Positions 3,546 to 56,288 of a stretch of DNA of 64,000 bases are shown here, one piece after another. The translations under genes and the position numbers were made by a program. A model generated the notes under the pieces. That model was not told the DNA's origin. It saw only the letters and a list, made by a program, of their open reading frames with translations, and made no database searches. Every line of letters begins with the position of its first letter. Position 1 is the first letter of the stretch. Origin of the DNA: Ancylomarina euxina (GTDB taxonomy: Bacteria; Bacteroidota; Bacteroidia; Bacteroidales; Marinifilaceae); contig NZ_QQWG01000008.1 of assembly GCF_003863355.1 (NCBI RefSeq), forward strand, positions 124,001-188,000. Reading direction: 5' to 3'.

Positions 3546-3619
3546 GGCTCCATAGTTCAGCTGAATAGAACGTCAGATTCCGGTTCTGGAGGTCATGGGT
3601 TTGAATCCCATTGGGGTCA
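3546..3619 (+). tRNA. tRNA-Arg (anticodon CCG)
   Basis: A 74-nt cloverleaf can be drawn by hand. The acceptor stem is GGCTCCA with TGGGGTC (two wobbles) and discriminator A. The D stem is GTTC/GAAC. The anticodon stem is TCAGA/TCTGG with loop TTCCGGT, which places CCG at positions 34-36 and reads codon CGG. The T stem is ATGGG/CCCAT with loop TTTGAAT. The CCA end is not encoded. It stands alone between leuS and the exbD operon and is followed at once by a terminator. Confidence 0.93.
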
Positions 3620-50290: not shown

Positions 50291-51040
50291 ATGAAATTCA
50301 TAGGCATTATTCCAGCCCGCTACGCATCAACCCGTTTCCCGGGCAAACCTTTAGCCGATATTGATGGTAAACCCATGATTCAACGCGTTTACGAACAAGT
50401 TAAAATTGCGTTAGATGATGTGGTTGTGGCAACTGATGATAGTCGAATCGCTGAAGCTGTAAAGGCTTTCGGCGGCGAAGTTGTTATGACTTCAAGCGAG
50501 CACCAAAGTGGTACAGATAGAATTGCCGAAGCCATTGAAAAGATCGAAGCTGAAAACTCTGAGAACTATCAAGTGATTATTAATATACAAGGTGATGAAC
50601 CTTTTATTCAGCCTGAGCAAATTCTGGCTCTCAAGGATTGTTTCAAAACACCCTCAACACAAATTGCAACCCTGATAAAAGCCATTGAAAACTCCGAAGA
50701 GATATTCGATATGAATAAGGTAAAGGTTGTTGTTAGTAAAAGCCTTCGTGCACTTTATTTCAGTCGTTCACCTATTCCATTTTTGCGAGGAAGCGAAAAA
50801 GAAGATTGGATGAAGAAACAGACCTATTACAAACACATTGGCATGTATGCCTACCGCAGAGATACGCTAAACGAGATTACAAAGTTGCCACAAAGCTCAC
50901 TTGAAATTGCAGAATCACTTGAGCAATTAAGATGGCTCGAAAATGAATATGTCATCCAAACAGACATCACAAAACACGAATCGATAGGGATTGATACTCC
51001 AGAAGATTTGGAACGAGTGAAACAACTTGGCTTGTTATAA
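50291..51040 (+). CDS. kdsB: 3-deoxy-manno-octulosonate cytidylyltransferase (CMP-Kdo synthetase)
   Basis: Activates Kdo with CTP for LPS inner core. 249 residues from ATG 50291 (MKFIGIIPARYASTRFPGKPLADI; the track start adds 11 residues). Motifs are GIIPARYASTRFPGKPL (nucleotide site), VVATDD, MTSSEHQSGTDRIAEA, NIQGDEPFIQPEQI (metal site) and KHIGMYAYRRDTL. It is a single-gene unit ending at a terminator, with the structured leader of the MATE gene beginning just beyond. Confidence 0.97.
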   Translation: MKFIGIIPARYASTRFPGKPLADIDGKPMIQRVYEQVKIALDDVVVATDDSRIAEAVKAFGGEVVMTSSEHQSGTDRIAEAIEKIEAENSENYQVIINIQGDEPFIQPEQILALKDCFKTPSTQIATLIKAIENSEEIFDMNKVKVVVSKSLRALYFSRSPIPFLRGSEKEDWMKKQTYYKHIGMYAYRRDTLNEITKLPQSSLEIAESLEQLRWLENEYVIQTDITKHESIGIDTPEDLERVKQLGLL

Positions 51041-51049
51041 AACATTGAA

Positions 51050-51079
51050 GAGTCTACTTAAAAAGTAGGCTCTTTTTTT
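51050..51079 (+). terminator. terminator of kdsB
   Basis: Stem GAGTCTACTT/AAGTAGGCTC with loop AAA followed by seven T, ten nt after the kdsB stop. Confidence 0.88.
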
Positions 51080-51080
51080 A

Positions 51081-51111
51081 TTTTGAAAAAAGTCAAAATA
51101 TATTACCTTCG
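51081..51111 (+). promoter_or_regulatory. promoter of the MATE leader RNA
   Basis: TTTTG (51081-51085), 18-nt spacer, TACCTTCG (51104-51111), matching the Bacteroidota consensus with one C for T. Transcription should begin near 51117, some 250 nt before the MATE start codon. Confidence 0.65.
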
Positions 51112-51116
51112 CGGCC

Positions 51117-51263
51117 TTAAACATAGAATTAACGACTCACTTACATCGAGTTTTTGTTTTGCAACATTTCACACCTTGAAATCCGAAACGCCAGTTTCGA
51201 AAAGAGTACAAAACAAAAGATGTAAGCCGGAGGAAAAGGTCTCGTTTTACTACCATTTTTTTT
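51117..51263 (+). ncRNA. structured 5' leader, candidate riboswitch or attenuator (or stand-alone sRNA)
   Basis: A long closing helix pairs CTTACATC (51140-51147) with GATGTAAG (51219-51226) and continues as TTTTGTTTTG (51152-51161) with CAAAACAAAA (51209-51218). Inside are two hairpins: ATTTCA/TGAAAT with loop CACCT, and CGAAAC/GTTTCG with loop GCCA. This makes a three-way junction. Loop bases ACCT (51173-51176) could pair with AGGT (51237-51240) downstream. A weak hairpin (GGAGGAAAA with TTTTACTACC) and eight T (51256-51263) then form a terminator-like end. No known riboswitch class is recognised. A further dyad CCTCAA/TTGAGG lies at 51296-51334. Confidence 0.55.
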
Positions 51264-51369
51264 ATTAATAATGTCTGTATTTCAATTATGAAATGCCTCA
51301 ATTTCGTGCGCACAACTGTCGCATAAGCTTGAGGTGATTTATTGTGATACGGATGTAAATTTTCAACTC

Positions 51370-52710
51370 ATGATGAGATTTTGGGAGCAACACGCGGGTG
51401 AATACAAAAAGACTCTTTCACTTAGTATTCCTGTGATTATTGCACAAGCAGGACAAATTACAGTAGGATTAATTGATAATGTCATGATTGGCCAATTGGG
51501 AACCATCCCTTTGGCTGCAGCATCATTTACCAATACTCTTTTCAACTTAGTTTTAATATTCGGGATGGGCTATTCATTTGCTTTAACCCCACTAATTGGC
51601 AAAAGCTGGGGTGAGAAAGATCATCATTCCGTAGGCTCTTGGATTAAAAATGGCCTCATGGCAAATGCCTTTATGGGTGTAGCCCTCGCTCTACTATTAA
51701 TCATTCTATATGTATTTATGCCCTATATGGGACAACCTCAATCGGTACTACAACCTTCACGAGATTATTTGGCTATACTTATAAGCTCCGTGATACCCAT
51801 GATGGTTTTTTATGGCTACAAACAATTTGCCGAAGGAATTGGTGATACAAAAACAGCAATGAAAATTATGCTTTGGGCCAATGTGGTCAATACAGTTGGT
51901 AACTATATGTTTATGTATGGAAGGTTTGGTGCTCCAGAAATGGGCCTCACCGGAGCAGGTATCGGTACATTATTAGCTCGAATATTTATGGCAATCGCCT
52001 TTATTATTCTTTTTTATAAAAACCAGAAGTACAAATTATTTACAGAACTCTACAATCAGGCTTCATTCTGTTGGACTAAATTCATTCAGGTTGTAAAATT
52101 AGGCATCCCCCTTGGCGGACAAATTGTAATGGAAGCTTGTGCATTTGGTCTATGTGCCATTATGATGGGATGGGTCAGCGAAATAGGTATGGCTGCACAC
52201 CAAATTGCGATCACTCTTTCCACCTTAGGTTTTATGATCTATCAGGGACTGGGATCTGGTACAACCATACGTGTTAGTCATTATAAGGGAGCGAATAATA
52301 AGGAAGGCATTATTCGGGCAACAAAAACAGCTATGAATTTGATGTACGTCTACTGTGCTTTTTCTGTCATTTTGTTTGTAGGTGCTCGTAATATATTACC
52401 CCTCATGTTTACCACAGACACAACGGTTGTGCAACTTGCAGCTCAAATGTTGATCGTTTGTGGTGTATTCCAACTTGTAGATGGCATTCAAATTGTACTT
52501 GTAGGAACTCTAAGAGGATTCGCTGATGCTCGAATTCCGGTCATCATAACCTTTATATCATACTTCATCGTTTCTCTTCCATTTAGTTATATGTCAGCAT
52601 TCGTATGGGGTTTTGGAGCGGTAGGTATCTGGTTCGGATTTCCAGTTGGTTTAGTTGTTTGCTCGGCACTTTTCCAAATGCGATATAAATATATTCTCAG
52701 GAAAATTTAA
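51370..52710 (+). CDS. MATE-family multidrug/Na+ efflux transporter
   Basis: Inner-membrane antiporter of the MATE (NorM-like) family. From ATG 51370 (MMRFWEQHAGEYKKTLSLSIPVIIAQ) it has 446 residues and about 12 helices. Family landmarks: LSIPVIIAQAGQITVGLIDNVMIGQLG near the N-terminus, MGYSFALTPLIGKSWG, and the repeat in the second half KLGIPLGGQIVMEACAFGLCAIMMG with the GSGTTIRVSHYKGA loop. The substrate cannot be read from sequence. The track start 51334 would place the start inside a leader dyad. It follows a structured leader with its own promoter, so conditional expression is likely. Confidence 0.93.
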   Translation: MMRFWEQHAGEYKKTLSLSIPVIIAQAGQITVGLIDNVMIGQLGTIPLAAASFTNTLFNLVLIFGMGYSFALTPLIGKSWGEKDHHSVGSWIKNGLMANAFMGVALALLLIILYVFMPYMGQPQSVLQPSRDYLAILISSVIPMMVFYGYKQFAEGIGDTKTAMKIMLWANVVNTVGNYMFMYGRFGAPEMGLTGAGIGTLLARIFMAIAFIILFYKNQKYKLFTELYNQASFCWTKFIQVVKLGIPLGGQIVMEACAFGLCAIMMGWVSEIGMAAHQIAITLSTLGFMIYQGLGSGTTIRVSHYKGANNKEGIIRATKTAMNLMYVYCAFSVILFVGARNILPLMFTTDTTVVQLAAQMLIVCGVFQLVDGIQIVLVGTLRGFADARIPVIITFISYFIVSLPFSYMSAFVWGFGAVGIWFGFPVGLVVCSALFQMRYKYILRKI

Positions 52711-52782: not shown

Positions 52783-53460
52783 TTAACCTTTTTTCTTTAT
52801 CTGTGTTAAAAGGTCAACATTCAAAAGTTCGACCAATTTATCCTCAACCTTGATAATCTTTTCCTTATTAAATTTTGAAAAGGTATGAATCACACTTTCA
52901 CGGGAATAGCCAATGGTCTCGGCAATCTCTTTTCTGGAAAAAGGCAATTTAAAGATCATGGAATTTTCCATTTGGGCATAGTGTAGTAAAAAAGTAGCCA
53001 AACTTCCCTCTACATTCTTATTACTGTACATGACCATTCGCTTGACTTGCCTATGTGAAGTCTTCGACATGGTTTCGATAATACCCATAGCAAAACTACC
53101 ATTGGTTTTTATTAATTGTTTAAATACGGCTATATCAATCAATAAAACCCTGGAGTTCTCCATGGCAGTTGCCGAAATATGATAGGTCTTATCAAAAAAG
53201 GCATGCGATAAACCCAGGAAACGAAATTGTGGAGCCATTCGAATCGTATTGTTTCGCCCATCAGATTCTATATTAATCTTAGCTAAACCATTTAATACGT
53301 AATATATATGTGTCGCAAAACTTCCCTGTTTTATAATATTTTCATTTTTCTTAAAATCAAGAATCGTACTATTATTAATTATCATACTTACATCCCGACC
53401 AGAAAGGGATGAAAAGCAAGGATGCTTCAAGTATTGCTCTAATTCTAAATTCTCATCCAT
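52783..53460 (-). CDS. CRP/FNR-family transcriptional regulator
   Basis: 225 residues: a cyclic-nucleotide-binding-like beta barrel (about 20-130, KNENIIKQGSFATHIYYVLNGLAKI), a dimer helix and a C-terminal winged helix-turn-helix with FSRKEIAETIGYSRESVIHTFSKFNKE. The recognition helix SRES resembles CRP's SRET, in which Arg and Glu read the GTGA half-site. Only one N-terminal cysteine (HPCF) is seen, so it lacks the four-cysteine set of oxygen-sensing FNR. It is divergent from the dcuB-type operon, whose upstream region carries a GTGA-N6-TCAC site. It is the likely regulator of the asparagine/aspartate module. Confidence 0.92.
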   Translation of the reverse strand: MDENLELEQYLKHPCFSSLSGRDVSMIINNSTILDFKKNENIIKQGSFATHIYYVLNGLAKINIESDGRNNTIRMAPQFRFLGLSHAFFDKTYHISATAMENSRVLLIDIAVFKQLIKTNGSFAMGIIETMSKTSHRQVKRMVMYSNKNVEGSLATFLLHYAQMENSMIFKLPFSRKEIAETIGYSRESVIHTFSKFNKEKIIKVEDKLVELLNVDLLTQIKKKG

Positions 53461-53850: not shown

Positions 53851-55164
53851 ATGTTTTGGATTGAATTTGCGGTAGTATTAATAGCAATTTTTGTTGGAGC
53901 CCGATTGGGAGGTATCGGCCTTGGAGTAATGGGGGGGATTGGACTTTCCATTTTAACTTTTGGATTTAATTTACAACCCACTTCACCTCCTATAGATGTG
54001 ATGCTGATGATTGTATCAGTAATTACTGCCGCAGCAGCCATGCAAGCCGCTGGTGGATTGGACTATCTGGTAAAGCTGGCTGAGAGCGTACTTAGAAAGA
54101 ATCCGAATCGGATTACTTACTATGGCCCTATTGTATCTTATTTGTTTACCCTTGTGGCTGGTACAGGTCATGTATGTTATTCAATACTGCCTGTTATATC
54201 AGAGGTGGCAAGAGAAACGGGCGTTCGTCCAGAACGACCATTGTCTATCGCAGTGATTGCATCACAACAGGCTATTACGGCAAGTCCCATATCTGCAGCA
54301 ACCGTTGCCTTATTGGGTATGCTTACACCTTACGATTTTCAATTGATCGATATATTAATGATCAGTATTCCTGCAACTTTTTTTGGCGTATTATTGGGAG
54401 CATTTGCTGCCAATAAAATGGGAAAAGATTTAAAGGACGATCCTGAATACCAAAAAAGACTAAAAGAAGGAAAACTAAAATCGAATTCAGAAAGAGTAGA
54501 TAAAGAAGTTCCAACTTCCGCTAAAATATCAGTTGCCTTATTTATTCTTGGAGCATTTGCTATTGTGATGTTTGGTTCATTTGAAAGCTTACGTCCAGTA
54601 TGGAATGTAGGTGGTGAGATGATCAAAATGGGCATGCCCGCGACCATTGAGATGGTGATGATGGCTATTGCAGCATTAATCCTGATTTTCTCAAAGGTTA
54701 AAGTTGAAGACGTTGCTAAAGGCAATGTTTTTTCAGCAGGAATGCAGGCGGTAATTGCAATCTTCGGAATTGCCTGGATGGGTGATACCTTCTTTGCAGC
54801 TAATATGGATTATCTGGGTGGAGGTATTAAGGAGATGGTGACCAACATGCCATGGTTGTTTGCCTTAGCATTGTTTGTGCTTTCAATCTTGCTTTATAGC
54901 CAGGCAGCTACAATTCGTGCCCTAATGCCTTTGGGTATTGCATTGGGTATACCTGCTCCAGCTCTTATTGCTATGTTCCCATCAGTAAACGGATACTTTT
55001 TTATTCCAAACTACCCAACGGTAGTCGCAGCCATTAATTTCGACCAAACGGGTACAACCCGAATTGGAAAATACTTATTAAATCATAGTTTCATGATTCC
55101 AGGAATGGTGGCTACCATTGGCGCTGTTTCAATGGGCTTCCTATTAGTTTCAATACTATTCTAG
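53851..55164 (+). CDS. anaerobic C4-dicarboxylate antiporter, DcuA/DcuB family
   Basis: A 437-residue inner-membrane carrier with about 10-12 helices. Dcu-family sequences are plain: MFWIEFAVVLIAIFVGARLGGIGLGVMGGIG at the start, MQAAGGLDYLVKLAES, LVAGTGHVCYSILPVI and, near the end, FPSVNGYFFIPNYPTVVAAINFDQTGTTRIGKYLLNHSF. These carriers exchange fumarate, malate or aspartate for succinate in fumarate respiration. It is the first gene of an operon with periplasmic asparaginase and a porin. DcuA versus DcuB cannot be decided here. Confidence 0.95.
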   Translation: MFWIEFAVVLIAIFVGARLGGIGLGVMGGIGLSILTFGFNLQPTSPPIDVMLMIVSVITAAAAMQAAGGLDYLVKLAESVLRKNPNRITYYGPIVSYLFTLVAGTGHVCYSILPVISEVARETGVRPERPLSIAVIASQQAITASPISAATVALLGMLTPYDFQLIDILMISIPATFFGVLLGAFAANKMGKDLKDDPEYQKRLKEGKLKSNSERVDKEVPTSAKISVALFILGAFAIVMFGSFESLRPVWNVGGEMIKMGMPATIEMVMMAIAALILIFSKVKVEDVAKGNVFSAGMQAVIAIFGIAWMGDTFFAANMDYLGGGIKEMVTNMPWLFALALFVLSILLYSQAATIRALMPLGIALGIPAPALIAMFPSVNGYFFIPNYPTVVAAINFDQTGTTRIGKYLLNHSFMIPGMVATIGAVSMGFLLVSILF

Positions 55165-55196
55165 AAAAACCAAAAATAAAACTTACGACTAATTAA

Positions 55197-56288
<1,092 letters not shown>

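Follow-up and report, generated by a model that had tools for sequence, protein, structure and literature searches.

The NorM-like MATE transporter gene of Ancylomarina euxina is preceded, in the 64-kb window (the whole stretch of 64,000 nucleotides that was analysed), by a structured RNA element that lies between kdsB (50291-51040) and the MATE gene, right behind a promoter (Table 1). A terminator scan around the leader called a single terminator, that of kdsB, at 51047-51075. The nearest solved structures to the MATE protein are those of NorM. Established Bacteroidota promoters follow the consensus TAnnTTTG, to which the TACCTTCG of the leader promoter has a single mismatch, and elements of this type are found a short way 5' of the RNA in every homologue; the good Bacteroidota promoter that an earlier note on this DNA had placed ahead of the leader is present where it was described. 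Transcription would be expected to start near 51117, about 14 nt 5' of the outermost helix, P1.

On its other side, the MATE gene converges with a gene for a Crp/Fnr-type regulator (52783-53460). In two other genomes (G017 and G009) the MATE gene has instead a divergently oriented neighbour encoding a cyclic-nucleotide-binding domain, so that regulators of this kind recur beside it. Adjoining the Crp/Fnr gene are genes for a DcuA/DcuB-type C4-dicarboxylate transporter and an asparaginase (53851-56288), a pair that looks like an asparagine/aspartate-to-fumarate unit. The sole Rfam match above cut-off within the window is a tRNA gene at 3546-3619.

The element is composed of P1, P2 and a three-way junction from which P3 and P4 emerge as hairpins; the P3 loop forms a pseudoknot with the strand preceding the 3' side of P1. 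Most of this architecture had been recognized in the earlier note: its 18-bp closing helix with a bulge corresponds to P2, found as 8 + 10 bp with a one-sided bulge, its two inner hairpins forming a three-way junction are P3 and P4, and its possible loop-to-tail pairing is the pseudoknot (ACCUU with AAGGU; Table 1). The outer helix P1, which closes the whole element, had been overlooked.

Table 1. Features of the MATE leader and gene (window coordinates)
Feature	Position	Strand	Remarks
Promoter	51082..51111	+	TTTG 51082-51085, 18-nt spacer, TACCTTCG 51104-51111
Candidate aptamer, whole element P1 to P1'	51131..51246	+	116 nt; R1/R2 matches in 10 genomes
P1 5' strand AACGA	51131..51135	+	pairs with 51242-51246; GGCGA/UCGCU in G128 and G314
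CUC	51136..51138	+	pairs with GAG 51230-51232; CUCAA/UUGAG in G006, CUCG/CGAG in G128
P2 5' strand, two segments	51140..51161	+	51140-51147 and 51152-51161; partners 51219-51226 and 51209-51218
P3 hairpin, loop ACACCUU	51166..51182	+	51166-51170/51178-51182; compensatory change at 2 pairs; paired in 100% of cells
Pseudoknot strand 1, ACCUU in P3 loop	51173..51177	+	compensatory C-G to G-C exchange in G001 and G013; paired in 100% of cells
P4 hairpin CGAAAC-GCCA-GUUUCG	51184..51199	+	4 pairs changed on both sides
P2 3' strand	51209..51226	+	pairs with P2 5' strand; complementarity kept in divergent lineages
Pseudoknot strand 2, AAGGU	51236..51240	+	just 5' of P1 3' strand
P1 3' strand UCGUU	51242..51246	+	pairs with AACGA 51131-51135
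Second long hairpin	51271..51356	+	base strands 51271-51287/51340-51356; consensus fold, modest support; 7 long-leader genomes only
MATE transporter gene, NorM-like	51370..52710	+	start ATG 51370 or 51373; TIGR00797 and PF01554 above cut-off

Distribution of the element and covariation of its helices

The element was found in 10 genomes, 8 of the window's family and 2 of another family of the same order. BLASTN searches of 60 related genomes recovered it, at 79-89% identity, ahead of the orthologous MATE gene in 6 other genomes, and a divergent copy in G006 was reached through a search with the MATE protein. A covariance model built from 8 copies, all from the window's own family (R1), matched two genomes of the second family, G128 (E = 4.7e-4) and G314 (E = 4.1e-5), and in both the next gene encodes a MATE protein. 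The model extended by these two copies (R2) matches the window at 51129-51252 with 139 bits; it detected the element in 7 of 40 genomes of the family and 2 of 3 of the second family, with no other convincing copies. The family is narrow: of the genomes sampled, 3 of 393 in the order (by a pattern search) and 1 of 395 in the class carry it, these large searches scoring few candidates per genome, such that rarer or more diverged copies may escape them. No copy was detected upstream of more distant MATE orthologues or of the MATE paralogue of the window genome with the model filters off. Several weaker candidates were set aside, namely the BLASTN matches L008-L013 away from MATE loci (A/T-rich chance similarity), marginal R1 matches in G051 (within a phosphoglycerate-kinase-like gene) and G037 (partial), and 13 pattern matches in viral contigs, none of which scored with R2 and which were taken as chance.

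The structure of the element is real. In an alignment of 10 sequences, 7 of them close, P1, the CUC/GAG pairing, P3, P4 and the pseudoknot are paired in 97.9% of cells, and sliding the structure by 1-3 columns leaves 32-49% of cells paired. Changes on both sides of a pair were counted at 8 pairs in 18 cells, against 4.1 +/- 1.6 in shuffled alignments; none of 500 shuffles scored as high, a count that is not a probability because the sequences are related. Compensatory changes occur in P1, P3, P4 and the pseudoknot. The pseudoknot is kept in all 10 copies and changes from ACCUU/AAGGU to AGCUU/AAGCU, a C-G to G-C exchange, in G001 and G013; since it is absent from both covariance models, the fact that G128 and G314 preserve it tests the structure independently. 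P2 and P4 have been rewritten in each lineage, and for these helices, chosen by eye, own strands pair at 92-100% versus about 40% when strands are swapped between lineages. Conservation of the helices in related genomes, which the earlier note had named as one test of its proposal, is therefore borne out, with both helices and pseudoknot retained through compensatory change.

Such conservation and covariation are a stronger test of structure than folding energy. The window RNA folds with z = -2.75, 1 of 200 shuffles being equally stable, and several homologues have no significant z in the shuffle test when energy is taken by itself. When the pseudoknot strands are kept unpaired, the window, G006, G128 and G314 are predicted to share one topology; in the same folding, the optimum predicted for 3 close relatives lacks the full P1. 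Conserved letters are concentrated at the pseudoknot (CGACUC; YUUCNCASCUUGAARYCC; GGNNAAGSUHUCG), the pattern expected of a binding pocket.

Linkage to MATE genes

All 10 copies lie directly 5' of a MATE gene and on its strand. The remaining neighbours vary over at least four settings: copies follow kdsB or methylmalonyl-CoA mutase, stand divergent from a Crp/Fnr-like gene, or have other surroundings in the second family. MATE genes of named Ancylomarina relatives are 83-93% identical to that of the window, which places the window in the genus of Ancylomarina salipaludis; the MATE proteins downstream of the divergent copies in G006 and G314 are 54% and 43% identical to that of the window. Copies are found on three separate branches of the MATE protein tree, and their presence requires three changes on it, which could reflect either an ancient presence with losses or several gains. 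Three Marinifilum-like genomes (G009, G024 and G034; loci L021, L022 and L023) have a similar promoter and MATE gene without the element, indicating that the element is a module of the MATE mRNA and not a separate gene. As judged from these genome comparisons, the same-strand link and the Marinifilum pattern fit a regulatory module of the MATE mRNA rather than a free small RNA.

A conserved structured RNA in the 5' leader, on the strand of the gene in 10 of 10 copies, is what is generally looked for in a riboswitch, and we consider it likely that the element represents an orphan riboswitch class, serving as its aptamer domain in the leader of NorM-like MATE genes. The earlier note had envisaged a new ligand- or peptide-controlled attenuator. 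Its cis-acting, promoter-proximal, pseudoknotted MATE leader of no known class stands, and control by a ligand is what we infer, while attenuation (see below) and the peptide are not supported. A 61-aa frame at 51083-51268 does not stay open in relatives, being interrupted in G017 by one inserted base and in G006 by length changes; most sister genomes have no short ATG frame near 51270, and no short ORF is conserved among the relatives.

It is also conceivable, if unlikely, that the leader is bound by a protein and not by a metabolite, either in autoregulation or by a dedicated RNA-binding regulator. The single kind of downstream gene in all 10 genomes and the narrow taxonomic range would suit such an arrangement, but the element has been kept alongside MATE genes of three divergent branches and amid varied neighbours, and no gene for an RNA-binding protein is linked to it. 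Moreover, we know of no MATE protein that binds RNA.

Output of the leader

The earlier note had also interpreted a hairpin followed by eight T as a terminator. This did not hold up in comparison: the eight-T run reads TTTCATTT in 3 sister genomes and is missing in divergent homologues, and the terminator scan called nothing there. A transcription attenuator, in which the hairpin AGGAAAAGGU/ACCAUUUUUUUU (approximately 51231-51264) terminates unless the aptamer forms, is accordingly quite improbable. This hairpin overlaps the pseudoknot and P1 3' strands, and in the window it is the local minimum-energy fold, excluding P1 and the pseudoknot, which speaks for an attenuator; however, its T-run lies within the stem, it has few G-C pairs, it does not form in sister species, where the letters are AAUUUUAUUAUU or AUUUCAUUUAUU, and it is lacking in G006, G128 and G314, in which P1 ends 30-31 nt ahead of the start codon with no T-run. 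We rejected this alternative hairpin over P1 and the pseudoknot, strong in the window species only; a conserved G+C-rich hairpin followed by a U-run, the hallmark of an intrinsic attenuator, was not found in the leaders compared.

The extra space in long leaders is filled by the predicted second hairpin (Table 1), which is imperfect, so that about 37 nt remain unpaired from P1 to the start codon, and there is no room for it in G006, G128 and G314; it may act as a spacer or belong to the expression platform. The Marinifilum-like loci L021, L022 and L023 do not have this second hairpin either, which looks like a clean loss of the module. In the window, the openness predicted for the start-codon region is 0.37 with the element formed versus 0.38 without, and folding with and without P1 revealed no clear change at the start codon and identified no expression platform.

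A translational effect seems more likely than attenuation, because the hairpin with the T-run is confined to the window species, no terminator is called, and the spacing in divergent genomes is short. In our proposal the leader RNA folds as P1-P2-(P3,P4), with the P3 loop pairing with the strand that precedes the 3' side of P1. The ligand, a small molecule that is probably a toxic or surplus substrate of the transporter, would lock both the pseudoknot and P1 in place, and the A/U-rich stretch ahead of the start codon would then be released or hidden, altering translation. With an exporter as the target, an ON switch would be expected.

Comparison with known RNA classes

A search of the whole window with Rfam 15 gave no family above the gathering cut-off at the element, and no riboswitch matched at E <= 5 in the window region or at E <= 1 in four related loci (L007, L026, L045 and L054), in line with the earlier statement that no known aptamer class could be recognized. 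Likewise, no MATE-linked motif of this kind appears in the main texts of three large screens, including one of 104 motifs (PMC2864571) and one of 50 genomes (PMC11109978). By Rfam and the main texts of the large screens, the element is unclassified.

The THF-I riboswitch contains a P2/P3/P4 three-way junction and a P3 loop that pairs with J2/1 (PMC9881143). Compared with that description, the element shares P1, P2, the three-way junction and the L3-J2/1 pseudoknot, in the same helix order and with the same type of knot, which would be expected if it were a divergent THF-I riboswitch, either a true member or one sensing a pterin-like compound. We regard this as very unlikely: the THF covariance model does not match the element, with no hit at the thresholds given above in the window or the four related loci, and THF-I controls folate genes in Firmicutes, whereas the element precedes MATE exporters in Bacteroidota rather than genes of folate synthesis or uptake. 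Least probable of all is a free-standing small RNA gene located upstream of MATE by chance, since, despite an own promoter and a long conserved primary sequence in close genomes, every copy found precedes a MATE gene on the strand of that gene, in varied contexts, a second convincing copy is absent in the genomes searched, P1 ends 30-31 nt ahead of the start codon in two families, and there is no conserved terminator, the hairpin and T-run with which the earlier note would have ended such an RNA being specific to the window species.

We lean instead towards a new riboswitch class that has the THF-I topology but another pocket and that serves NorM-like MATE exporters of marine Bacteroidota, with their native substrate as its ligand. 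To our knowledge, few MATE exporters have a known native substrate; if our reading is correct, an aptamer tied only to one MATE group would be a direct handle, as the ligand of the RNA would probably be the pumped compound. Such an aptamer would also give the Bacteroidota a further riboswitch class and provide a second, apparently unrelated aptamer with a junction and pseudoknot of the THF-I type.

Guanidine-IV and Gd4v RNAs consist of a pair of hairpins connected through a pseudoknot, and the 3' hairpin is terminator-like; some are located upstream of MATE genes, and Gd4v is found in Bacteroidetes among other phyla (PMC9788692). The element is similarly pseudoknotted and MATE-linked, a link that is partial in those RNAs, but it differs in its outer P1, its three-way junction and its lack of a conserved terminator, and it falls outside the two-hairpin definition. 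In the kind of evidence that defines it, namely conserved core letters, covariation and a constant downstream gene, the element resembles the orphan candidates that have come from comparative genomics (PMC2864571, PMC11109978).
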